A DNA stretch of 64,000 bases from Onchidella celtica (lineage: Eukaryota; Mollusca; Gastropoda; Systellommatophora; Onchidiidae): assembly GCA_963931925.1 (NCBI GenBank), contig OZ007574.1:36018378-36082377 (forward strand). Reading direction: 5' to 3'. The position numbers were made by a program, and so were the translations under genes. Every line of letters starts with the position of its first letter. Within the stretch, counting starts at the first letter, position 1. Positions 897-58,119 of this stretch are shown piece after piece. The notes under the pieces were generated by a model. That model made no database searches. It had not been told where the DNA came from and worked only from the letters and a program-made list of their open reading frames with translations.

Positions 897-3486
897 GATA
901 GACGGACAGACAAAAATTCTTTATTTCCATGTGAATACAATACAGATTGTACAGATATAATATCGAAACATTACATCTAAGTGGAAATTGTGCCATGGTG
1001 GGTGGCTTTACTTTATCTCTTCTATGGAAGGGATGGACAAAACTGGAACATGTTTTTAAATAGAGTTAATAATTCCTATTATACGACCTGCATCTTTTAT
1101 TCCAGATTTTGAATGATCCAATAACTGAACTGATACTACAGTACTTAGATATGAACTTACTTTCTGAATTGTTAATGTTTAGTTTCTTCAGCCCAGTAAT
1201 AAATCTTCTGTGAACATTTCCCAAACTTCCAATTATTAAAACTATTATATCACATTGGTATCCCATAGCACTGATTTCAATGGCTAATGGGAAATATTTG
1301 TCAAATTTGCCTTGATAACATCTATCAATGTAACAGTCGTATGGTACTGCTACTTCAACGATCTGGACTTTCTTATTAGTATTGTCTATAACTGTGATGT
1401 GAGGACGTGTTGTTCTGGTGGTAAAGGATGTTGCATCTGATCCAAACATTGATGGGTTGATGAGTCTGTCTTTTAGTACTTCTTTGTTACGATTGTAATA
1501 CGTGATCTTCCTTTCAATAATGTCCATTATTCTGTTGTGTCTTGCTTGGTACATGCCGCTGAATTTCGTGCACCCGTTCAATGCATGGCATACTGTTTCC
1601 GAGTGGTGGTGGCATAACTTGCATGATTTAGTATAGGCGTTGGGGTAGTACAGGGACAGTAGGGTCTCGACTTCTAGGATCTGCAGTCGCCCACGTGTGA
1701 CAAATGATCTGATCTTGTCATCCAAACTATGGTTAGTCAAATGTTCGTATGACACACTGTGGTTGATACCTTTTGCCTCGCGGACAATGAGGCTTTGAGA
1801 TGACTTTGACAACAGTTCCTCCTGGCATCTTTTTAAACGATCTCTCTTAAACGTAGAGGAGAACTTGTTTGAATCAGTAAACATGTAGGAGACTTCGTCG
1901 TCAATTTTTATTTCCAGTGCGTATTCATTATGGCGACACAGCATGAGGATGTTATTTCTGGTACACATTTCATTCAGAAAGATCCATTCAGATCTTCCCC
2001 ATTTGACATTGGTATTCTTCACTACAGCTCCTTTATTGTTGACTGCGTACCCAGCAAAATTTGGGTAGTCTTCGGTGGCGATCGCTTTGCGTTGGTCCAT
2101 ATGTAAATGGAGGGATCTTCTTGCTGTCTCTTTCACGACAGGATCATCACTGTTTAGGAGTGATAAGTGGAAAGACATATACTTGGCATAATAGATGACT
2201 CGAGGGTTCAAGATCCCAAGGCCACCTTTTGACTTAGGGCTGAAAAAATATGATCTGGTGGATGATGAGTTGAGCCCAAGCCAGTGTCGGGTGTGAAAGA
2301 CCATGGTGTCTTCCAAGTGATCAAGATTCATTTCTGTAAACATTAAGTTGGAGAAGTAAAATGTCAGCTTAGACAGACACATCACGGTGATAGTTTGCAG
2401 TTTTGCTGACGTTGGTAACAAAGATGTGTCAATATTTGCCATGGTTGTATCAAAATCTGCAATTAGTTTTTCCACTTGCTGATTGTTGCTGGTGTTTGTG
2501 ATGTTCATTTCATGACCAAGATAGATGTACTGCTGGTCACTTTCGTACATTGGAATAGGCGCACCTTGGATATAAAGGTTAAGCTCTCCAGTCTTAGCGT
2601 TTTTCTTCCATTTATTCCCTGTGCCGTGAAGAATCGCGCATTTCCTGTGCTTCACTTCCATGCAGGAAGTTTTCATAAATATGTCCGTTTTCCTTATCAT
2701 TTCTTCCATTTCACGCTCATCAGCTGCGCAGATGCTAACGTCGTCGACGTAACCCTGGACTGGATTAAGATTGTTCCTAATTAGTCCCTGTACATCATAA
2801 GGTTGGTTAATCCATCGAAGCCATTTATCTATGCCCTGTTCAAAAACGACAACTGACCAAGGACAGCCTTGAATTACCCCCCTTCCTCTTGATATTATAT
2901 TGGTTGCTCCCCTTGCGGTCTTGACTTGAAAACTAGACCCGTTGTATGTATCATGTGTTAAACGTATGTATTTATTGGGGTAGCCACTTTCTTGTAGTTG
3001 TTCTATCATGAAAGAGTGTTCAATGCTTCCAAAAGCATCTTTGATGTCAATGAAGCCCATAAATAGCTTTCCAGTTTTATTGAGAAAGTTGCTGATAACT
3101 GACTTAAGGCAGAATACGTGTTCCTGTAAACCATTTCTAGGGATGGAACCTTTCTGGCATGATGTAAGACGGCCAGTTTCAACTATCCACTTCATTAGCC
3201 GTGTTTGAATTATTCTCATGAACAGCTTGTAAGACGTCTGTAACAATGATATTGGTCGCCAGTCGTCAATTTCATTTGGATTGCCATTCTTTTTCTGGAC
3301 TAGTGTTATAATACCGTGTTTCCACTCAGGCGGAACACGGCAGTGTGTCAAGCAGATGTTAAAAATCACTGTGAGCACAGGCACGAATTTCCTAATGTTA
3401 TGTTTGAGTGTGCAGTAGGTGACTCCGTCTGCACCAGGTGACCTGCGGTTTGGACTAGGCCCACAGTTCTGTTCACCATGGCTACG
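897..3486 (-). mobile_element. R2/NeSL-type non-LTR retrotransposon, 5'-truncated
   Basis: This minus-strand LINE copy has an ORF (next entry) followed by a short 3' UTR. The UTR contains an AATAAA signal at 920-925 (read on the minus strand) and ends in a GTCTGTCCGTCTATCTATC-like tail near 897. The upstream reading frame stays open only to 3486, where a TAA stops it, so the N-terminal zinc-finger/Myb part and the start of the RT domain are missing. Truncation at the 5' end is usual for target-primed insertion. The tail joins GATA/GACA-like sequence, and a second fragment of the same family at 3873-4055 also abuts a GATA array. The precise 5' boundary was not resolved; 3490-3580 is not obviously part of the element. 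Confidence 0.8.
1066..3486 (-). CDS. Reverse transcriptase / restriction-like endonuclease ORF of an R2-group LINE (partial)
   Basis: The frame is open from 3486 to the stop at 1066 (about 806 codons), with no clear ATG because the element is truncated. In order it shows: RT fingers and palm with WRPISLL, an IDIKDAFGSI block (motif A) and GYVDDVSICA (motif C, Y-V-D-D); a thumb region; a C-terminal CCHC-type finger, CKLC...ETVCHALNGC; and a restriction-like endonuclease block, RPHITVID...VQIVEVAVPYD. A finger followed by such an endonuclease is the layout of R2, NeSL, R4 and Hero-type LINEs, which nick DNA and prime reverse transcription at the nick. In the endonuclease motif the expected Asp of R/K-PD is His (RPH), whereas the fragment at 3873-4055 keeps RPD. 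This copy is therefore probably catalytically impaired. The clade within the RLE group is not resolved. Confidence 0.85.
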   Translation of the reverse strand, partial: RSHGEQNCGPSPNRRSPGADGVTYCTLKHNIRKFVPVLTVIFNICLTHCRVPPEWKHGIITLVQKKNGNPNEIDDWRPISLLQTSYKLFMRIIQTRLMKWIVETGRLTSCQKGSIPRNGLQEHVFCLKSVISNFLNKTGKLFMGFIDIKDAFGSIEHSFMIEQLQESGYPNKYIRLTHDTYNGSSFQVKTARGATNIISRGRGVIQGCPWSVVVFEQGIDKWLRWINQPYDVQGLIRNNLNPVQGYVDDVSICAADEREMEEMIRKTDIFMKTSCMEVKHRKCAILHGTGNKWKKNAKTGELNLYIQGAPIPMYESDQQYIYLGHEMNITNTSNNQQVEKLIADFDTTMANIDTSLLPTSAKLQTITVMCLSKLTFYFSNLMFTEMNLDHLEDTMVFHTRHWLGLNSSSTRSYFFSPKSKGGLGILNPRVIYYAKYMSFHLSLLNSDDPVVKETARRSLHLHMDQRKAIATEDYPNFAGYAVNNKGAVVKNTNVKWGRSEWIFLNEMCTRNNILMLCRHNEYALEIKIDDEVSYMFTDSNKFSSTFKRDRLKRCQEELLSKSSQSLIVREAKGINHSVSYEHLTNHSLDDKIRSFVTRGRLQILEVETLLSLYYPNAYTKSCKLCHHHSETVCHALNGCTKFSGMYQARHNRIMDIIERKITYYNRNKEVLKDRLINPSMFGSDATSFTTRTTRPHITVIDNTNKKVQIVEVAVPYDCYIDRCYQGKFDKYFPLAIEISAMGYQCDIIVLIIGSLGNVHRRFITGLKKLNINNSESKFISKYCSISSVIGSFKIWNKRCRSYNRNY

Positions 3487-16300: not shown

Positions 16301-18245
16301 CAAAAAGAGAAAAACTAACACCCTGCTCCATTTTCTTCAATAAAATGGACTTGAACATAGATAATTTATACCTTTTAGAAGATAGATGTATGGTCTGTTT
16401 TAAAACTATCGCTGTTGAAATGCTCCACAAAGAGGAAGCTTGTCTGTTTTTGTGTGAACATTACCTTGGTAAAGCCTACAATTTTTATGTGGAAATCCCA
16501 TTCGCAAAGGAACCATTATTCACTGAATACTGTGGGACATGAAATTATGATTTTGTGAAAACCACTTTTGAAGTCTTTCAACAACAAACTGAAAAACTGA
16601 ATAATTTATACTTTAATTTTTCCTTTTTTTCCCCCCTTAATGAAAACTCCCTGTTAACATGACAAAGAAAAGAAGCTTGCCCAGTCACAATTATGGTAGT
16701 ATCAGAAAATTGGCCAAAACTGCCTGTATGGCCTAGGAACTCTGAATTCACCCATTTAGGCAAACAATTTTCAAGAATAAACACAAATAATGATGCCCTA
16801 GCACTTACTTGATCAAACAGCTGATGTTGGGCTAAATATGCTTTAGTGCTAGTCTGTGGGTTAGTTATGTAAGTATCAATCATCTCATTGACAGTCATAA
16901 GTTTCTGAGTCCAGGAATCCTCCGTGTACCGTGTTCCAATCTCCACTGGTACAGTTCTGCACCCAGCTACAGATCTCAAGTAGTCTAAAGACCAGCGCCG
17001 AGTTGTCAGTGCTGGCCAATAACCTATGGCATCTGTGATGACTACGGGATTCCTGGGGTCCATGAACATTGCTTGAAACATTTCCACTGATGGGCAGGAG
17101 CACCGAGGTATGTCTCTAGTAATTTGTGAAGCAATTTTAGGAGGAAGGGAAATATTGAAATCTTTACTGTCATAAGAACATGGATTTGATTTTGTTGCTG
17201 TATTTTCATCATCCTTTCTGTTACAAATGTCCACTTGTGTTGCCGTTGTGTCAGCTACTTTTTCTTTACTTCTGTTTGTATTTGTTTCTTCCGAGGTGTC
17301 TCTGTCACCTTTCTTCAAGGAATCTGACGCGCTGATATCAGAGGTAGATGTTTCTTCCAGTCTTGCTTTCTTGACTGGTCTTAATGAGAATTCCTCATCT
17401 TCTCCTTGCTTCTGAGAGGTATTTTCTGTTGTGTCTCCTCCATCCTTGCTTATACTTGACCTCCTCCAATGTCCTAGAACCCCAAAGGCCTGCTGAAATT
17501 CTCTTGACATCCTGGCTAAAATGTTGTTCAAAATTGGACAGCCCATCAGTAGACCCATGTCGCAAGTCCTGAGAATGGTCATATGGTCAATATTCTTGGA
17601 TGTGTCAGAAAGCAAAGCACTTTGGTTTAAAGCTTTAATAACCGAAACCAGTGAGTACGCTTGTCTCCAACACAAGGCGACGTCTTTCCAGTAGCCAGTG
17701 TTCAATTCTTCCCATACTTTGTCTAGCAGTGTTTCACAAAGTTCCAAACTAGCAGCATAGTTGCCATCATACAAACTGTTAGCTGCATCTCTTAGCTGAT
17801 TCAATATAGCTGTGCTCTGCATGATAAAAGAAAAGTAAAAACAAAGTTAAGTAGGCACGGTTAAAACAAATGGTGGAATACGATAAGACCCAAATAATAA
17901 AACTCAGGACTCCAAACCTGCCGGAATTTGCAGAGCTTTCCCCATCGTATATAATATATATAACAATATATCACTTTTTAAGTCATATCAGGGAATTGTT
18001 ATGCAAAAAAAAGCATGACCACTGAGAGGTAAGACCAAATGTTCTCCATGACTTGACTGGCACCAAATGTCAAAATACGTCATTTTTAGCACATTTCTAG
18101 AATATACCTATTCTCATATCACACTTTCTTGTCTTACCATGACTGTATTTTCATCAATGACAGCCAACAGTTCCACAGGTTTTGCTGGCAGAAGTTTCAG
18201 TGAAAGACCTACTGACTTGCTGTCAGTGCTTTTAAGGCTTTCCAT
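13337..18245 (-). CDS. KDM8: KDM8 (JMJD5): JmjC-domain 2-oxoglutarate oxygenase
   Basis: Four coding exons on the minus strand: 18245-18138, 17816-16809, 15282-15139 and 13594-13337, all phase 0 with GT..AG introns, giving 505 codons. The ATG at 18243-18245 is the only start that leads into the first donor (GTAAGA). Exons 1-2 give the alpha-helical N-terminal region, then a long Ser/Thr/Glu-rich linker. The JmjC part then runs from [10 protein letters not shown] and [13 protein letters not shown] through [11 protein letters not shown] and [11 protein letters not shown]. Exon 3 holds PLHQD (H410, D412) and exon 4 holds HWHYV (H489), the Fe(II) ligands, with the family-typical FSVSFWWQ end. Human KDM8 is a nuclear 2OG oxygenase reported as an arginyl hydroxylase; histone demethylase and clipping activities are debated. 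Human KDM8 is about 416 residues, so the extra length here is mostly linker. The introns carry repeats but every motif is intact. Confidence 0.95.
14119..14554 (-). mobile_element. tRNA-derived SINE, near full length, in KDM8 intron 3
   Basis: Read on the minus strand it begins GGGGACACGGTGGTCAAGAGG and contains a pol III B-box-like GGTTCAAATCC. It continues through a CCTATGGTGGGTAGGATTGAGC body and a CAGGTCACTGCCCGGG block, and ends with GGGCTGCAATGACACTAAGGCAAATTTC..GAAGTATACAAAATACAAA. The head is tRNA-like and the tail ends in a short CAAAATA repeat, which is typical of a SINE mobilised by a LINE. Related pieces lie at 38405-38629 (head and body) and 43630-43712 (tail only). Confidence 0.75.
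14600..14815 (+). repeat. Dispersed repeat, family C, copy 1 (KDM8 intron 3)
   Basis: Direct-orientation partner of 15365-15560. Shared order: AAAAATTATGAA..ACTGCCTCAA, GTGGA(C/T)ACAT(T/C)CATTTTGG, CAAAATTC(T)GTC, TTTATTT..TTTTTTGGAGCTGCAAAAA, GAAAAGTAT. Also weakly related, in inverse orientation, to 48840-48960. Unclassified. Confidence 0.65.
15365..15560 (+). repeat. Dispersed repeat, family C, copy 2 (KDM8 intron 2)
   Basis: Direct-orientation partner of 14600-14815. The two copies flank KDM8 exon 3, so unequal exchange between them would delete or duplicate that exon, which carries the Fe-binding HxD. That consequence is inference. Confidence 0.65.
15790..16085 (+). repeat. Dispersed repeat, family D, copy 1 (KDM8 intron 2)
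   Basis: About 300 bp is shared in direct orientation with 24765-25075: TCA..CTAGGTT(T/C)TGGT, TTTTAATTAT(T)TC, GTATGAC, CAACT..TTTAG, GCCATTAGCC, TTCA..ACA(G/A)GTCC, GAATCAGAACTG, GGTAGGG and TCCCT(T/G)TGGGTTTTCTTG. No ORF or terminal structure was recognised. Confidence 0.65.
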
Positions 18246-23225: not shown

Positions 23226-40065
<16,840 letters not shown>

Positions 40066-47522: not shown

Positions 47523-50263
47523 GCGTAACTTATTTGTGACTGTACTTTTAAAAAGTATTTTTATTGTCTGCGGTACAACTAGGATGTGGCCATGGCCCAA
47601 GGCCGGTCTATAGAAATGTGCTGAAAAAAGGACTATACTGACGCCCAAAGAAAATGGCCTAACTGGCAGCATGGCCTTTTTCTATTATATTGTCTGTGAT
47701 TACAAACAGTCACGTACGTTAGTTTGCCATAATGGAAACGAATATTTCGGTAGCACATACGCATATCTGCCTTTGACATAAAAAAAGAATGAGACAAGTT
47801 CATTGAGAGAATAAAGAAGAAAATAGCAATGTTGTCGGTTGCGAGGTTTTTCCTTTGAGCGGCAGCATAAACGCCCAAAACCAATTTCGATGCAAAAAGC
47901 ACAAAAAAGGTTTGTTATCTCATTTGTTCCAGGCCACCTTGTGCTGGCCCTTGCCTAACATTCCTGGACGTCCTTGTCTGTGTAACTTTACCACAGTAAA
48001 TCAGCAATCGTTTTACTGCGGGCGTTCTCTAGACCCAAGGTTTGTACGCTGCATTTGTACCTTTCCACCTGCTCCTTTTATAACAGTATAATATTCTTTT
48101 GGCTGGGGTTGAAGCGAAACCAAACCAAAGCTGTATTTGCAAGGCAACAAATGATTTTTAAAAATGCTCCGATATAATGAACTCTAAAGGAAAATCCAAT
48201 TCTAAATAGGTCGTCTAAAAAGGCTTCATGCCATGTCACATGATGCAAAAAGTCTGTTACTGAGTTTTGATAACATTTATGTAATTATGCGTCAGATGTG
48301 TGCTCTCATGGGATAATAGAATGATTCTTATTTGCCTTATCTTTTGATAGAATTCATATAGAATTTATAGTTTTTTTGAATTAAGTGTGTAGGTTTTTAA
48401 CTATTTGTCACAGTGCAAAATAGTGCAAATAGAAGGTTTTTTAGGTTGTTGTTTTTTTTTGGTATGTGTGCATATTTTAGCTCCGTACTAAGCGAAACTA
48501 CGCCTTCTTTGAGTATCTGTATCGTTCTTGTTTGTTTTTTTCTGTATGTTTGTGTGTGATATGTACTGGCTGACGCCGGCAAGACAATTCTTGTACATTC
48601 TTTGTACCAAGCCCAACTGTATTATCTAGATCTACTTCAGATGAATATGGGCACTGATGTTTGATACAAGAACTAATAGGACTTACTGTTACATGACAAT
48701 TAATTGCAGACTACACACATGCGATGAAGCTGACTTTGGATTAGCAATGTGTAAACAGAGGCCCAGAACGAAACTTCTGAACATATTATATTACTTTTCA
48801 ATCTTCTCGATAAAAAATGCATTTTTTTTTTTTTTGCTCAAATAATTTGTAACTGAATAATATGAAAGATGGAGGTTTGTCCAAAATGGATGCATGCAGG
48901 TTGTGTACAATCAAAAATTGAGGCAGTACACACAGTTTCATCATTTGTGATCACATGGCCACGAAGCTTTAGATGCTTACATATTATTAACATGTGGTGC
49001 TGGTGATCAATAGAATTTGATCGTAGTGTTTGATACAATACGTGAGCTAAATGAAACACAATCTTTTCACACAGGTTAACTTGTGATGTCTGGGATGCCG
49101 TACATTTCCTGCCATTTCCAAAACCACGATACTGCACGCCAGCAGAACTGGAACTTATCAAATTTGGCACACGGTAAGAACAAAAAGTTTGAAATCATTG
49201 AGGCAAATATTTACTAGACCTATGTTATCTTAGTGTTCCTGCACAGAATGTGTAGATTTCGTGCACATTTGAAGAAGGCATTATGGCTGCGGGTCCATGA
49301 GATCATTATTTTCTGAGGTGGACGCACAGCCCATCTTGCCGTCTCTGAGGGACACCGAAATCTGCCAGTTGATTTAATAGATGTTTATCACATTTACGTT
49401 CATATAGACATACTTTGTAATATGGGCCTTTTACCGTTAGATTTTTAGCGTCATTTTATTTGATCTTATTTATAGGAATCTGAGGGCTGAGAAGTAAGAA
49501 AAGTGAGAAGAAAAAAACACTAAACATGCAAAATGGCCGTTATCGTGCCGATGTGCCGTTAAACCCAAATTCAAAACTGGACTTAAGATTGTGCACAGGG
49601 CGGAACATTTCTGACGCCATTGTGTTTTGAGGCCGTCGGGGGGTGGGGGGGTATTCTTTGTGCTAGAGGTCCATGACGTTCAAGGGTTCAGCAAAATGTT
49701 TCCTTTGATACCAGCTGAGTTCCTCGGTCCTGCCCCGGTATAAATCTGTTTATCATTTTCAGTTTTCTGTGATTATTAGGGATTGGCTTCACCCTCTGCT
49801 TCCTTAAGTTTTATTTTGTTGTTTCTTTGTTTGTGGATAGGTCTTACCACAGACTAATAAAATACCCAGACTGGATGATTCCATTGTGTGTCGTCACAAA
49901 ACAGCGAAAGGTCCGCCAGTTTAGGTTCACGGTTGCGACCGACGCTTCAGCATAGCAACAATGCAGCGGTCGCTAAAAGTCCATACGGTCATTATTTATA
50001 ACGATAAAAAAAAAAAAGGCAGATGTAGACAGTGAAATGAAAGGATAGGCAAGTTAATGCATTATTAATACATGTACAACCAATCTTGACAAATAAAAAG
50101 AAATTTCTACTGCAGATAGAACTAGAATCGGAATTTTCCGAGCGGCGGCCATGTTGGTTTTAAGGTCGCCGCTCGGGAAATTCCGTAAAAAACGACACAG
50201 CCCGAAGCTCGTGTTTCCAGTCTGGTTAATTGTGAGTGTGCATGAGAAAACCCGGTATAAGTC

Positions 50264-51143
50264 TGTCACGAGTGGAGTGAGTGCAATTAAGGGGATTGCT
50301 ACAGAGCGGGTGTAGAGTAAGAAGGGCTCACAGTAGACAAGTAAGTTAAGCGTGCTGTTGTGAGTAGTGGGAGGGTCTGAATGAGGCGAAAGCGCTGTAT
50401 TACTATGACTGCAAGTTAGAAGGTCCTACGGAACGGACCTGTGAATAAGAGCCCATCGGGCGGACATAAGGGGAGCAGTCGAGAAGACTAGTGAGAGAGT
50501 CTTTCCAGTGATGACTGGTGTCGAGGACGGGCCGCAGAGCCACCTCGATGAGCACAGGGGATAGGCCAGCATAGGGCCGGAGGCCACACATAGGCCAGAA
50601 GTGAGGCTGTCAGTGCAGGACAGTAGAGGCACATACAGTCGTGGCAGTCAGGCCACGGACAGGGACGTAGATATGAGCGTGAATGTGATAATGCACTATT
50701 GCCATGTTGAGGGGCGAATGTACTATTGAAATGAGAATGTACTATTGAAATGATAATGTCTATTGAAATGATAATGTGTTATTGCCCTGCTGAGGTGCTA
50801 GGGGAATGCTAAGGTGTATGACAATAGGGAGGTGATATTGAGAGACTGCGGTGCCAGTAAATTATTAATGTGCTATTAAGACCCTGAGGGGAGAGGCTGA
50901 GGCCGAAGTGCCTTTAGGAGTAACTACCGGATTGCGGATCCGAGGGAGAGTGTGTGTGAGAATAAGGCCGTTGTACGGCAGTTGAGTTCAATAATATAAT
51001 GTATGTAATTGCGCTATTATCTGTATAATTATGTTTAATAAATGTGTGAGTCTGATGGATTGTTCTGTTAAGTGTTAACTTGTTTGTTCGTGATTGTTGT
51101 CCTGTCATAACTTATTACATCTCCCAGTCTGGGATTTGTGACA
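50264..51143 (+). repeat. 5' LTR
   Basis: 880 bp with termini TGTCAC and GTGACA. It contains an AATAAA signal at 51037-51042 and a short tandem array of about 19-bp units (TACTATTGAAATGA(G/T)AATG) at roughly 50708-50780 in the U3-like half. No clear TATA box was picked out. Confidence 0.96.
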
Positions 51144-51144
51144 C

Positions 51145-51157
51145 TGGGGGCTCGTCC
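51145..51157 (+). promoter_or_regulatory. Primer binding site, tRNA-Pro type
   Basis: TGGGGGCTCGTCC lies one base after the LTR. It equals the first 13 bases of the classical 18-base tRNA-Pro primer site, then diverges (TGTTT). Minus-strand DNA synthesis would start here. Confidence 0.8.
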
Positions 51158-52085
51158 TGTTTACCTGTGGTCATTTTGACATTGTGTATTCGTTATATCT
51201 AGTTGTTTTTCTGTTGTGCTAGGAATTTGTGCTGTTGTCTTTGTTCGTCGGATGAATGGGAATTTCATGATATGATTTATGTATATTTATGAATATGTAT
51301 TCATGCATGTATTTTGATGAATATGTATTAATGTGTACTTAAATTTCTGCAGAGTGTGTGTGCCAGCCTGAGGAGTCAAGCGGCCAGAGCTCCGATTAAG
51401 GGGAGGAGTTAAACTCAAAAATTGAAAGTTAGGTGAAAATTTTGTACCCTGTATTGAGGGCTGTCTTTTCATCTGTCTGTTTCCCTGTTTTTGCTGTTTT
51501 TGTCGTAATCGATTATACGGGCGGTGGCGCGGGTTTGCTGTGGTGAACTTGGTTTGTCCTCTTCGGGAGGTGGGCTAATCTAGGAACCGCGTTCATCACA
51601 GTGAACAGTTCTGTAGGGACCTGTATTTTTGTTTAGATTGTAGCGTTCTATCTTCCTCGTTGTTTTAGGAAGACGTTTCTCTTGTCCCTCTTCTACCTTT
51701 CTGTAGATACGTTCTTTTTTTTCAGACTCTGTTCTTGTTCGTAGCTTGTAGTGTAATCGGCGTAGTAGGTTGCATTTTTTTTTCCATTATAGTTTTTTTT
51801 TTGTAGAAGCTTTGTCCTAGTCTGGTTCGTTGTCCTTGACGTACTTGTGGTCCTTCTACTGAATTTCTTCATTCTTGTCGTTTCTATTTTCTTTTATAAT
51901 TAATAGTGCTATACATTTTGTAGATATAGAATTAGTTGTGCTGTAAAGGTAAATTTCTGAATTGTATTTGAGACAACTGGGTATTGTTGTATCTGGTGTG
52001 ATCTCAGGTCTCTGGTCGTATCGTTAGTGATCATACCGACAGGTTGGTCGTCTTATAATAGATACCATAACCATAAATCTGTGAA
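51158..52085 (+). other. Untranslated leader of the Gmr1-type element
   Basis: About 930 bp with no long ORF. The section at about 51610-51700 (GAACAGTTCTGTAGGGACC.., TAGGAAGACGTTTCTC) has a counterpart at 62260-62375 in the second element, so part of the leader is conserved between the two families. Confidence 0.75.
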
Positions 52086-55000
52086 ATGGCGGAACTCCAA
52101 CAACTAATGAAGTTGGGTAAGGAACTTGGCCTGGAGGGAGAGGAGCTACGCGGCTGGATTAAAGAACAGCAGGCGGATTTGCGCGATGAGCGTGCTAAGG
52201 ATAGAGAGCGAGAAAAAGAGGCTAAGGCTCAGGAGGAGGAAAGGGAGTTTAAGCAACAGGAAAGAGAGGCTAGGGATAAAGAAGAGGAAAGAGAGTTTAA
52301 GTTAAAGGAGTTGCAACAGGAGAGGGAGTTTAAGTTAAAGGAGATAGAAGCTCAAGAACGGGAGCAGGAGATAAAGTTAAAGGAGATAGAAGCTCAAGAG
52401 CGGGAGACAGACGCGCGAGTAAGAATCGCAGAATTAGAAAGCAAAAAGAATACGCCAACGGAAACAGTTGAGCGGCAGGTACACAATAAAGGTGGCGTTA
52501 GGATTAAGCTCCCTACGTTCGACGACCGGAAGGACGACATAGACGCCTTCCTTTACAGGTTCGAACTGAACGCACAATTGCAATGGGGGGAAAATAAGGA
52601 ATTATGGGCCACGTACCTGGCGTCTCTATTGCAAGGGCGAGCGTTAACCTACTTTAAAGAGCTACAGCGCGAAGACGTGCAAGATTACGATAAGCTGAAG
52701 GCTTTGCTGCTTCGCCGATTTGCGCGTACCGAGGAATATTTCCGGGAGCAGTTTAGGCGGGCACGTGCAGATGCCAGGGAGGACTTTGCTGCCTTCGTCG
52801 CGAGACTAACGGAGTATTTCGCGAACTGGGTAGACTTGGCGCATGTGGGCGCGGATTTTGCTAAACTGAAAGACTTAATGATCCGTGACCAGCTGTACGC
52901 GTCGTGCCACAAAGATCTGGTGGCTTTCCTGAAAGAGAACGAACCCGCGACGGTGCAGGAGGCGTCTAAGTTGGCGGAAGCATACCGTACGGCACATCCG
53001 TCCAAACCAGTCGCCAGGGCGTACGTCCAAGATGCTGGATACGTCGCCGTTGTCGAAGGGTCGCCGGCAGGACTTAGGGACAGGTCGCGTCAGCGTGGTG
53101 CCTATAGTGGGCAAGCCCAGGGGCAGCGTAGGGGCTATCACCAATCACCGGCATATGGATCCGGTAAGTTTGACCGAGCAGGAGGGCTAGGTCGCGGTAA
53201 TGGCCGGGGGCGACTTGTGACCTTTGCCGATGACCGACGGCATAGGGACTCTAGTTCCGGTCGCGATGGGTCACGGGGACCCAGGCCTAGTGCAGCACAG
53301 GGAGCGGAGTGTTGGACTTGCGGACGCGTGGGTCACTTTTCACGCGAGTGTAGGGCCGCGAAGTGTTGGAACTGCGGTAGAGCGGATCACATCAGCGTGA
53401 ATTGCCCTGCAGGTAGGATAGCGGCGAACGTGGACAGTAGCTCCAGTCCATGTCCCTCAAATAAATTTCATCATGCGGCTGCGTGTGTTACATCGGACAA
53501 CGGAGGCGGACAGTATTCTAAGTGTCCCAGTTGTGAGAAGTTATTATCTTCCGGTGTTTTACCTTGTGGGAGAAAGATCCCCGTTATAAATTCATGTCAT
53601 ACAGGAGGTGGTCTTAAAATTTATCCGGGGTTTGTTGGGGACGAACCGGTCTCGGTTTTACGAGATACAGGATCTACCGTTGTGGGAGTGCATAGGGATT
53701 GCATTCGGGATTCACAGCTTACAGGTGAGACTGTCCCGTGCATCCAATTTTCGGGGGCCATTGAGAAATTACCCATGGCAAGAATAGTGATAGATACACC
53801 TTTCCTTAGCGGGGAAGTCGAAGCAGTCGTTGGTTGTTTTCCAGGCGCCCAGCTCATCATTGGGAATGTATCACGGGTAGTTTCCCCTTCCGATGAGAAC
53901 GTGCAAGCATGGTCGCAATCAAAAGGTATTGACTTTTGCGCCGCGGTCGAAACACGTCGACGGGTAGCTGATAAAGATAAGATTAGACCTTTGGCGACGC
54001 CAGCGGTCAACCTAGATATCACGCCAGAGCGCTTGGCGAGATTACAAAGGGAGGATCCATCATTAAACCCATGTTTTGGGGAAGCGCGAACCGAGAAAAC
54101 GAGGAGATATAAGAACGGGTCGTCCTCCTTTATTGTTCAGGCGGGCATTCTGTTCCGTAAGTATGTAACGGTGGCCTCCATTTCAAAGCAGGTCGTTGTG
54201 CCAGCGTTGCTGATCGCAACAGTATTGCATTTGGCACATGATGTCCCATTAGCGGGTCATATGGGGATAGCTAGAACCAAAGAAAGGGTTCTTAAAAATT
54301 TTTACTGGCCATCGATCCACAGAGATGTGCAAGTCTATTGTAAGACGTGCAGTGCGTGCCAAAAGACGACGCATAAGGGTCGTACACCCCAGGCTCCTCT
54401 TCAGAAGATCCCCACGGTCTCGGAACCGTTTAAAAAGGTCTCGATAGACCTTGTTGGCCCCATTCACCCAGCGACCGATAGGGGGAATCGATTTTTCCTA
54501 ACGGTCATATGTAATGCTACGAGATGGCCAGAGGCGGTTCCTCTGCGGACCATAACGTCTGAGGCAGTCGCGGAAGCGTTGTTCGCAATTTTCGCTAGGG
54601 TAGGAATACCAGAGCAAATTCTGTCTGATAGGGGCGCGCAATTTACGTCGCAGATGATGAAGGAATTGTTCCGCTTATTCAGCATACAACCCATCACTAC
54701 CACCCCTTATCATCCGCAGGCTAATGGCATGTGCGAGAGATTGAACTCGACGTTAAAGTCGATGCTGCGTAAGGTAGCTGCTGATCGCCCTAAAGATTGG
54801 GATAGATATATCCCTGCAGTGTCATTCGCGAACAGAGAGGTACGGCAGGAGTCAACGGGATTCTCGCCGTTCGAAATGATGTACGGTCGTAGTCCTAGGG
54901 GCCCAACTGATGTTCTTCGGGACATGATGACGTCGCCATCATCGGGAGACGATGAGCAGATTTCGGTGTTTCAGTACCTTGTTGATTTAAGAGAAAGACT

Positions 55001-56819
55001 ATCTTCAGCGCGCACTATAGCAGAAGAAGCTTCTGGTATCGCTTCGAAAAGAGCAAAAGACTATAAAGATAGAGGTTCCAAACTGAGAATTTTTAAGCCA
55101 GGAGACAAGGTCCTATTGTTGTTACCTACGGACCATAATAAGTTATTGATGACATGGAAAGGCCCTTATGTTATTGAGCGAGTTGTTTCAAAGGTAGATT
55201 ACGCTATCCACATTGATGGAGCGAGTAAGGTTTTCCATGTTAATATGCTACAGAGATTTTATGAGAGACCACAGTATCTGTGTGCACAGACAAGACCAGA
55301 GGAGACTGTCTTCTCTATTGCTTGTACGGGGGTCGTAGACCAGTTGGACTGTGACGTAAGCGACACCGAGGCGCAGGAAGAGTTACAAATTCAATTGCCG
55401 GAGTTAACTCCGACACAAGGTTACAGGGACGTAAAAATTAACCCTGACCTTACGAGTTCAAGGAGTAGGGAACTTAAGACCCTGCTAGCGTCATTCCCGG
55501 ATGTTGTTACGGATTTGCCGGGTCGCACTACGGTGATCCAGCACCAAATAAAGTTGACTTCGGATAAGCCAGTATTTCTTAGACCGTATCCGCTGCCTTT
55601 TTCTTCGAGAGATAGAGTCATAAAGGAAGTTGAGTCAATGTTGAAGTTAGATGTGATAGAACCATCAACATCGCCGTATTCATCACCCATCGTCCTCGTG
55701 AAAAAACTTGATGGATCGGTGCGGTTCTGTATTGATTTTCGAAGATTGAACACTATTACGGTAGGCGATAGGGAGCCTATTCCGTTTCAGGAGGAATTAA
55801 TAGCTTCATTGGCCGGGTCCACGTGGTTTTCCAAGATAGATTTAACGAAAGGTTATTGGGAAATCCCGCTTACTGAGGAGTCTAAACAATACACGGCGTT
55901 CCAAACGCCCATTGGATTATTCCAATTTAAGGTCATGCCATTTGGGTTGGTAAACGCGCCAGCGACGTTTGCACGATTAATGAGATTAGTGTTGAAGGAC
56001 ATACCTAATGTCGTGTCATTCTTTGACGATATAGCATGCCATACGTCGACATGGTCTGATCATATTCAGACACTAACAGTAATTTTTCAACGATTACGTC
56101 ATTTTGGGTTAACTGCTAAACCCGCAAAGATGGATTTGGCATGTCCAGAGATAATATTCTTAGGACATATTGTGGGTAGAGGTGTTCAGAGACCTGAAGT
56201 AACAAAAATTGACAAGTTGGTAGGGTTGCAAATCCCTAAAACAAAGAAACAAGTCAGAAGCTTAGTGGGAATTTTAAATTATTACAGAAAGTTCATTCCA
56301 AATTTTTCCTCCTTGTCATCTTCTTTTACTGACCTTACTAAGAAGGGACAACCCGATAAGGTCCAGTGGACGTCTGAATGTCAGACATCATTTGATAATT
56401 TGGTGACAGCATTATCATCGTCACCCATTCTGATATTACCCGATTTTCGATCTAATTTTATCCTCAGAACGGATGCGTCGGACTCTGGTGTCGGCGCTTG
56501 TCTTCTACAGGAGAAGAACGAATGTCTCCATCCTGTATGTTATGTCAGTAGGAAGTTATTGCAGAGAGAAAGAAAGTATTCTGTGATAGAGCGTGAGTGT
56601 CTTGCCATTGTCTGGTCCGTCCAGAAACTAGGACGTTATCTCATGGGACGAGAATTTTGTATCCAGACATACCACAAGCCACTGACATTTTTGTCGAAGA
56701 ATCGTTCGTCCAGCCCACGCTTGTCTAGATGGGCATTGGCTTTGCAGCCGTATACCTTCGTTATTCAACCAATTCCAGGAACCAGCAATCATATCGCCGA
56801 CTACCTTAGTCGAGCCTAG
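52086..56819 (+). CDS. Gag-Pol polyprotein of the Gmr1-type element
   Basis: A single 1577-codon ORF. Residues about 25-120 form a highly charged coiled coil rich in REREKE-type repeats. About 140-310 form a capsid domain whose C-terminal half (LKDLMIRDQLYASC, FLKENEP, EASKLAEAYR) resembles the SCAN fold. Two CCHC knuckles follow at 409-422 and 427-440. Protease has DTGS at 527. Integrase has an HHCC finger (about 713-760) and a D, D-35-E core (about 787, 848, 884; SDRGAQFTS, GMCERLNS), followed by a chromo-like PGDKVLLLLP..WKGPYVIERV segment. Reverse transcriptase has FCIDFRRLN, FGLVNAPATF and FFDD near 1313. RNase H has TDAS near 1462 and ERECLAIVW, but QTYHKPL with Tyr1529 where Asp is expected. 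Gag and Pol share one frame with no stop, so processing must be proteolytic. The ATG at 52086 starts the conserved MAEL N-terminus. Confidence 0.95.
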   Translation: MAELQQLMKLGKELGLEGEELRGWIKEQQADLRDERAKDREREKEAKAQEEEREFKQQEREARDKEEEREFKLKELQQEREFKLKEIEAQEREQEIKLKEIEAQERETDARVRIAELESKKNTPTETVERQVHNKGGVRIKLPTFDDRKDDIDAFLYRFELNAQLQWGENKELWATYLASLLQGRALTYFKELQREDVQDYDKLKALLLRRFARTEEYFREQFRRARADAREDFAAFVARLTEYFANWVDLAHVGADFAKLKDLMIRDQLYASCHKDLVAFLKENEPATVQEASKLAEAYRTAHPSKPVARAYVQDAGYVAVVEGSPAGLRDRSRQRGAYSGQAQGQRRGYHQSPAYGSGKFDRAGGLGRGNGRGRLVTFADDRRHRDSSSGRDGSRGPRPSAAQGAECWTCGRVGHFSRECRAAKCWNCGRADHISVNCPAGRIAANVDSSSSPCPSNKFHHAAACVTSDNGGGQYSKCPSCEKLLSSGVLPCGRKIPVINSCHTGGGLKIYPGFVGDEPVSVLRDTGSTVVGVHRDCIRDSQLTGETVPCIQFSGAIEKLPMARIVIDTPFLSGEVEAVVGCFPGAQLIIGNVSRVVSPSDENVQAWSQSKGIDFCAAVETRRRVADKDKIRPLATPAVNLDITPERLARLQREDPSLNPCFGEARTEKTRRYKNGSSSFIVQAGILFRKYVTVASISKQVVVPALLIATVLHLAHDVPLAGHMGIARTKERVLKNFYWPSIHRDVQVYCKTCSACQKTTHKGRTPQAPLQKIPTVSEPFKKVSIDLVGPIHPATDRGNRFFLTVICNATRWPEAVPLRTITSEAVAEALFAIFARVGIPEQILSDRGAQFTSQMMKELFRLFSIQPITTTPYHPQANGMCERLNSTLKSMLRKVAADRPKDWDRYIPAVSFANREVRQESTGFSPFEMMYGRSPRGPTDVLRDMMTSPSSGDDEQISVFQYLVDLRERLSSARTIAEEASGIASKRAKDYKDRGSKLRIFKPGDKVLLLLPTDHNKLLMTWKGPYVIERVVSKVDYAIHIDGASKVFHVNMLQRFYERPQYLCAQTRPEETVFSIACTGVVDQLDCDVSDTEAQEELQIQLPELTPTQGYRDVKINPDLTSSRSRELKTLLASFPDVVTDLPGRTTVIQHQIKLTSDKPVFLRPYPLPFSSRDRVIKEVESMLKLDVIEPSTSPYSSPIVLVKKLDGSVRFCIDFRRLNTITVGDREPIPFQEELIASLAGSTWFSKIDLTKGYWEIPLTEESKQYTAFQTPIGLFQFKVMPFGLVNAPATFARLMRLVLKDIPNVVSFFDDIACHTSTWSDHIQTLTVIFQRLRHFGLTAKPAKMDLACPEIIFLGHIVGRGVQRPEVTKIDKLVGLQIPKTKKQVRSLVGILNYYRKFIPNFSSLSSSFTDLTKKGQPDKVQWTSECQTSFDNLVTALSSSPILILPDFRSNFILRTDASDSGVGACLLQEKNECLHPVCYVSRKLLQRERKYSVIERECLAIVWSVQKLGRYLMGREFCIQTYHKPLTFLSKNRSSSPRLSRWALALQPYTFVIQPIPGTSNHIADYLSRA

Positions 56820-57154
56820 GGGAAGATTTCAGGAGCTTATACATCGGAGGACAGGAACATTGACAGGATCTGTGTGAATGAGTCGACTTTAAAATATTGA
56901 CATTATAAATATGATATGAAGAATGGTTGATAGGTTGATTGGTTTTTGATTCTGTATTAGGTATTGTGTTTAGTTAGCTATTGATGATGGGATACATATA
57001 TGCATATTGCAGGCCATATTGATCCCCATATTTTCCCCTGATTTCGGTATTTTATATACTAGGGGAACTGCTAGGTCTTTTTTTTTAGTGTACGTATTGC
57101 TCACGCTCACTCGTTGACAGTCATCTTGATGCGATTTGAAATTAATTGCATTAA

Positions 57155-57175
57155 TTTTTTTGGGGTGGGGGATGA
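57155..57175 (+). promoter_or_regulatory. Polypurine tract
   Basis: TTTTTTTGGGGTGGGGGATGA lies directly before the 3' LTR, a T-run followed by G-rich purines, the expected plus-strand priming site. Confidence 0.75.
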
Positions 57176-58055
57176 TGTCACGAGTGGAGTGAGTGCAATT
57201 AAGGGGATTGCTACAGAGCGGGTGTAGAGTAAGAAGGGCTCACAGTAGACAAGTAAGTTAAGCGTGCTGTTGTGAGTAGTGGGAGGGTCTGAATGAGGCG
57301 AAAGCGCTGTATTACTATGACTGCAAGTTAGAAGGTCCTACGGAACGGACCTGTGAATAAGAGCCCATCGGGCGGACATAAGGGGAGCAGTCGAGAAGAC
57401 TAGTGAGAGAGTCTTTCCAGTGATGACTGGTGTCGAGGGCGGGCCGCAGAGCCACCTCGATGAGCACAGGGGATAGGCCAGCATAGGGCCGGAGGCCACA
57501 CATAGGCCAGAAGTGAGGCTGTCAGTGCAGGACAGTAGAGGCACATACAGTCGTGGCAGTCAGGCCACGGACAGGGACGTAGATATGAGCGTGAATGTGA
57601 TAATGCACTATTGCCATGTTGAGGGGCGAATGTACTATTGAAATGAGAATGTACTATTGAAATGATAATGTCTATTGAAATGATAATGTGTTATTGCCCT
57701 GCTGAGGTGCTAGGGGAATGCTAAGGTGTATGACAATAGGAAGGTGATATTGAGAGACTGCGGTGCCAGTAAATTATTAATGTGCTATTAAGACCCTGAG
57801 GGGAGAGGCTGAGGCCGAAGTGCCTTTAGGAGTAACTACCGGATTGCGGATCCGAGGGAGAGTGTGTGTGAGAATAAGGCCGTTGTACGGCAGTTGAGTT
57901 CAATAATATAATGTATGTAATTGCGCTATTATCTGTATAATTATGTTTAATAAATGTGTGAGTCTGATGGATTGTTCTGTTAAGTGTTAACTTGTTTGTT
58001 CGTGATTGTTGTCCTGTCATAACTTATTACATCTCCCAGTCTGGGATTTGTGACA
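57176..58055 (+). repeat. 3' LTR
   Basis: 880 bp, offset 6912 from the 5' LTR, with the same TGTCAC..GTGACA termini and an AATAAA at 57949-57954. By eye it differs from the 5' copy only at 57439 (G for A) and 57741 (A for G). Confidence 0.96.
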
Positions 58056-58119
58056 AAGTCGGCAGAGCTGATTTTGAGAAAAACGGCTTTGAAGTGAAAA
58101 TATGGGTCCGACACAAACC

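Follow-up and report, generated by a model that had tools for sequence, protein, structure and literature searches.

The 64,000 nucleotides analyzed in this study (referred to as the window) very probably contain a recent insertion of an integrase-first, SCAN-gag (Gmr1-like) Ty3/gypsy element in a heterobranch gastropod. Positions 50264 to 58055 represent a Ty3/gypsy LTR retrotransposon, in which the integrase precedes the reverse transcriptase (RT) within a single open reading frame. A full-length integrase-first gypsy element is thereby documented for a gastropod, and proteins of this kind were detected in many named molluscs, whereas in the accessible text of the 2018 mollusc census Gmr1 features in the background only (PMC6238403). 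Furthermore, many copies of the family share a common deletion border, providing a natural system in which own and borrowed retrotransposon proteins can be compared.

The element is bounded by two LTRs of 880 bp on the forward strand (50264–51143 and 57176–58055; ends TGTCAC...GTGACA), which were aligned with two mismatches and without gaps, and it is flanked by the target-site duplication AAGTC (50259–50263 and 58056–58060). The near-identical LTRs, together with the target duplication, identify the window copy as a young insertion. A primer-binding-site-like stretch, which may resemble a proline-tRNA site, is located right after the 5' LTR (51145–51157, forward strand); the 20 bases 3' of this LTR are the same in the window and six genomic copies. 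A polypurine-tract-like stretch ahead of the 3' LTR (57155–57175, forward strand) was assigned by eye. The scan of the window for tRNA and Rfam families yielded no match.

The uninterrupted gag-pol frame of 1577 amino acids (52086–56819, forward strand, as are all domains given here) encodes, in this order, a SCAN-like gag domain (residues 217–304; 52734–52997; PF02023, E value 1.3e-7, above the cut-off), two CCHC zinc knuckles (residues 409–422 and 427–440; 53310–53405; PF00098, 9.7e-10), the protease (DTGS motif at residue 527; 53664–53675), the integrase H2C2 zinc-binding domain (54198–54371; PF17921, 2.9e-19), the integrase catalytic core (54423–54737; rve, 1.1e-12), the RT (55698–56174; RVT_1, 3.5e-30; FFDD at residue 1312) and RNase H (56367–56753; RT_RNaseH, 4.5e-35; DAS motif at residue 1463). 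All Pfam scores are far beyond chance except that of the protease, whose profile match (Asp_protease_2, E value 0.051) lies under its cut-off, so that the protease is called from the DTGS motif together with this weak match. Positions and conservation among relatives place the integrase zinc-finger residues at H718, H725, C755, and C758. The catalytic acids D788, D848, and E884 (D-D35-E, 35 residues separating the last two) follow from Pfam, the motif and conservation in relatives. The earlier note had read a young element with both LTRs, a target duplication, the DTGS protease, an HHCC and D-D35E integrase, and a gypsy-type RT with RNase H behind that integrase; its coordinates and residues proved correct within a few positions, and each of these readings was borne out.

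It had also called the element complete. The LTRs, the domain order and the open frame agree with this description; the active site of RNase H calls for a caveat that the earlier note had not remarked. Its third conserved acid is replaced by Tyr in the window copy, while Asp occupies this position in 132 of 133 relatives (Asn in the remaining one) and in all six other genomic copies examined, namely the full-length copy L009 and five internally deleted ones. The remaining catalytic and zinc-binding residues checked match those of the relatives. Because of this substitution, which counts against the window copy being active, the copy is probably unable to complete replication alone with its own RNase H. 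Acquisition of the Tyr from deleted copies was considered and found unsupported, given the Asp in L009 and the five deleted copies.

The assignment to Ty3/gypsy is in line with the LTR pair and target duplication as well as with the RT-RNase H region, for which the best solved relatives were 4ol8 (2.5e-77) and the Ty3 polyprotein 7q5b (6.4e-76), the next match following at 1.1e-52. The RT matched RVT_1 and the RT of Ty3; for the Pfam RT of copia type, presumably RVT_2, the scan at an E value of 0.1 gave nothing. For the integrase, Ty3 (1e-27) and the foamy-virus integrase (2.6e-26) scored nearly equally, and 7z0h, which we assume to be Ty1, reached 7.3e-8. An integrase that precedes RT within a single pol and the SCAN-like gag are features of Gmr1-like elements. 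Order and gag make the designation Gmr1-like a probable one, the trees described below being composed of integrase-first relatives and Ty3 rather than authenticated Gmr1 or canonical animal gypsy elements.

To place both halves of pol, protein searches were evaluated for the best 120 of 3,697 matches above the threshold with RT-RNase H (scored for the 7,980 candidates with the most words in common) and for the best 120 of 1,774 matches with the integrase. Four proteins (P0004, P0005, P0007, and P0012) ranked among the top nine of both lists. Domain positions were checked in 345 proteins, comprising 225 retroelement and 120 KDM8 proteins. Among the listed retroelement proteins, 196 matched both pieces, 21 were without an RT match and 8 without an integrase match. 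The integrase came first in 196 of 196; as these relatives were picked by similarity to the window element, the figure describes an order common to its relatives and not to other gypsy elements. Both domains were nearly whole in 133 of them, and the integrase match was shorter than 120 residues in 37. The confirmed order differs from that of the Ty3 polyprotein, where the same search route placed RT (583–1009) before integrase (1088–1448). Named molluscs are represented by proteins of the integrase-first order in the database lists. In viral contigs, no relatives were found with the RT piece or the integrase piece.

For the trees, the 133 relatives were thinned to 110 rows including the window, and 45 relatives, the window and Ty3 formed the final 47 rows. 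The window, P0004, and P0005 form a group in both the RT tree (100/97) and the integrase tree (97/86). Within it, the RT tree pairs the window with P0004 (99/91), and the integrase tree, not firmly, pairs P0004 with P0005 (90/46). P0007 lies outside a six-row set in the RT tree and inside a seven-row set in the integrase tree; P0011 and P0018 adjoin the group in the RT tree and sit elsewhere in the integrase tree. The two trees disagree at several deeper nodes. Ty3 is the sole outgroup, and its branch is very long (3.85 and 10); the bootstrap of the integrase tree had yet to settle. The earlier note had proposed comparing the placement of the two regions; among the integrase-first relatives and yeast Ty3, their nearest relatives agree. 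Among the rows with a host name are Littorina, Plakobranchus, Haliotis, scallops, Pinctada, Crassostrea, and four echinoderm genera, and the echinoderm integrase-first elements are interspersed with those of molluscs in both trees.

This interspersion bears on whether the order arose independently in molluscs instead of being inherited with Gmr1, which we regard as improbable. A separate origin would be compatible with a comparison set lacking an authenticated Gmr1, and also with the mollusc census, which names 16 new gypsy clades and, in the main text as far as accessible, has the word Gmr1 once, as background (PMC6238403). Any of these new clades might include integrase-first elements. Against a separate origin stand the echinoderm elements placed among the mollusc ones and a SCAN-like gag that the sea urchin Lytechinus has too (P0061); in the part examined of P0190 (Strongylocentrotus), none was found.

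The host was placed by means of a KDM8/JMJD5 coding stretch outside the element (16578–17846, reverse strand), analyzed by protein search and tree. Its best named relative was found in Arion vulgaris (63% over 80% of the query), followed by Biomphalaria, Bulinus, and Plakobranchus. A tree of 19 rows puts the stretch in a set of nine (100/99). Arion, Bradybaena, and Plakobranchus in this set are confirmed Heterobranchia, to which the other members presumably belong as well; less surely, the stretch goes with the two stylommatophoran genera Arion and Bradybaena (92/91). Because of these relatives and this placement, the host is identified from KDM8 as a mollusc, as the earlier note had supposed, and as a heterobranch gastropod nearest to stylommatophoran snails and slugs. 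Three further open frames were observed in the window: one with an RT domain (1066–3486, reverse strand), one with RT and endonuclease domains as in non-LTR elements (30135–33350, forward strand), both without LTR-type partners found, and one with an NXPE4 C-terminal domain (39163–40065, forward strand).

The integrase-first group was reportedly first described in deuterostomes, by Goodwin and Poulter in 2002, which would lend some weight to contamination with deuterostome DNA or to a recent horizontal arrival. Both are extremely improbable here: the window is part of a 61-Mb contig carrying the snail-type KDM8 gene, and probe matches occur in thousands across the assembly of 1.14 Gb (43 contigs). 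An older horizontal arrival is possible.

Within the host genome, the family occurs as full-length copies, internally deleted copies and solo LTRs. A search with the first 500 LTR bases recruited 2,626 candidates, 40 of which were scored (97–100% identity); inspection of 34 of these 40 matches resulted in 27 loci, a sample biased toward LTRs resembling those of the window. Three loci contain the integrase core (the window, L009, and L027), six are internally deleted (L010–L014 and L019) and 18 are solo LTRs. An exact 5-bp duplication flanks 17 of the 18 solo LTRs, and L021 as well if its changed first base is assigned to the LTR; some bases next to L017 are withheld. L009 is full length, with all blocks in the order of the window and an open frame of 1554 codons, and the frames of L027 are interrupted in the part examined. 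Probes of 27 bases, allowing up to two mismatches for the integrase core, matched the core at 2,383 places and the commonest deletion border at 1,182 places (reversed controls: 0 in both cases), counts which are blind to the completeness of each copy and to the inclusion of related families. Some integrase-core matches occur in even triplets (C1 1664335, 1671398, and 1678461, spaced by 7,063 bases; C1 2371523, 2378646, and 2385769, spaced by 7,123 bases), which suggests tandem arrays of elements with common LTRs or an assembly effect.

Along the window copy, the closest genomic copy changes from block to block. In the N part of the integrase it is closest to L009 (96.9%, versus 89–90% to L010–L014), and in the C part of the RT it is closest to L010–L014 (97–99%, versus 89.3% to L009). 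This pattern, seen in a comparison of seven copies, points to exchange within the family, and it is also what might favor a chimaera or misassembly that joined the integrase of one element to the RT of another. The latter is very improbable, since the nearest relatives of the integrase are also those of the RT, the frame of the window copy is uninterrupted, and L009 shows the same block order in an open frame of its own. With the shared relatives and the integrase leading in every one of the listed relatives matching both pieces, there is no sign of a chimaera, and the comparison supports one lineage as the source of both halves.

The internally deleted copies have lost the integrase core. The net deletion measures 528 bp in L010, L011, L013, L014, and L019, and 609 bp with other borders in L012 only, both divisible by three. 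All six also share a second net loss, of 695 bp, which takes away the end of the integrase together with the first RT half and shifts the frame. The LTRs of L010–L014 differ at 1, 1, 1, 3, and 1 of 862–865 positions and those of L009 at 0 of 863, leaving aside gap columns, which number 1 to 3 in three of these copies; 5-bp duplications flank all of L009–L014. L010–L014 were therefore inserted about as recently as the full-length copies and, as they have neither the integrase core nor the first RT half, presumably moved with borrowed enzymes.

In mechanistic terms, the element would be copied like other LTR elements, with transcription starting in the LTR, tRNA-primed reverse transcription inside gag particles, and insertion of the new copy by its DDE integrase. 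The deleted copies would draw their RT and integrase from full-length relatives. A jump of the reverse transcriptase between short repeats may have produced the commonest deletion; the 528-bp deletion sits at a 9-base repeat.

The stretch from gag to the integrase remnant forms one open frame in two of the six deleted copies, L010 (877 codons) and L014 (873 codons), and is shorter or interrupted in L011, L012, L013, and L019. Behind the RT deletion, the RNase H frame spans 298–308 codons in L011, L012, L013, and L019, 212 in L010 and 254 in L014; about 82 bases of it are shared with the end of the upstream frame in L011, L013, and L019. Selection on gag alone was not supported, as pN/pS was 0.11–0.32 in all five blocks of the six deleted copies (15 summed, non-independent pairs; stops and gaps skipped), including the RNase H remnant put out of frame by the RT deletion. 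Among the three full-length copies, values ranged between 0.15 and 0.80. Besides selection, low values would also fit sequence inherited or received by exchange from functional copies.

A parallel was observed in oysters. Among the listed proteins, 35 with lengths of 1,108–1,224 residues match the first part of the integrase only, 26 of them labelled Crassostrea or Magallana, and their aligned pieces are at least 96.9% alike (median 98.8%). P0041, P0056, and P0057 belong to this set. Three of the 35 are 98.5–99.5% identical to P0109 (1,474 aa, C. gigas) and are without about residues 685–941 of that protein, while RT is kept. The only one scanned, P0041, gave no rve match and retains the SCAN gag, zinc finger, RT and RNase H. 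The oyster border is unlike the snail deletion borders, and the oyster records suggest a separate, independent loss of the integrase core. Many of these are gene-model proteins, so that an artificial intron is possible.

Tentatively, and leaning slightly against it ourselves, we propose that the integrase core, lying between protease and RT, can be removed in frame without killing the rest, so that mollusc genomes may repeatedly breed integrase-less parasites. The border of one in-frame deletion is present at the 1,182 places mentioned, a second in-frame deletion was seen in one copy, and the oyster records suggest a third.

Compared with the known Gmr1-like elements (cod Gmr1 and its deuterostome relatives), the window element shares integrase before RT, a SCAN-like gag and gypsy-type RT/RNase H; it differs in its mollusc host, the likeness being one of features and not of alignment to an authenticated Gmr1. 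According to the accessible parts of the respective papers, SCAN derives from the gag of Gmr1-like elements (PMC3424704) and occurs, among frog LTR elements, in over 50% of Gmr elements and only in those (PMC4131045). Gmr1 is also listed among clades known from several phyla, though absent from the annelid set of that study, as far as its available text goes (PMC8556966). The earlier note had presented a protostome member of the group as new. Its interpretation is mostly right, but the newness is reduced, because the available texts report the first protostome Gmr1-like elements from crustaceans in 2013 (PMC3587641) and an annelid family, LGF3, in 2021 (PMC8220671). Like the crustacean GyRex4 and its relatives and LGF3, the window element is Gmr1-like in a protostome; as far as described there, GyRex4 covers RT/RH and GyRex5 covers INT, each as a partial piece of its own (PMC3587641), while the window holds one element with both LTRs. 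Our literature search, thin on subscription journals, found no complete integrase-first mollusc element and no description of a mollusc Gmr1. The domain order is also that of P0004, P0005, P0040 (Haliotis asinina), P0045 (Littorina saxatilis), and P0109, which are 53–73% identical to the window element in RT or integrase. The element is thus another example of a known integrase-first kind, and its deleted partner copies are worth following. These may resemble the non-autonomous TR-GAG LTR elements of plants in keeping gag and losing most other proteins (PMC8704663). In the accessible part of that work, transposition of TR-GAG is reported, whereas that of the snail copies is deduced; furthermore, the snail copies come from an integrase-first animal element and, unlike TR-GAG as described there, have retained sequence for RNase H and for the zinc finger of the integrase.
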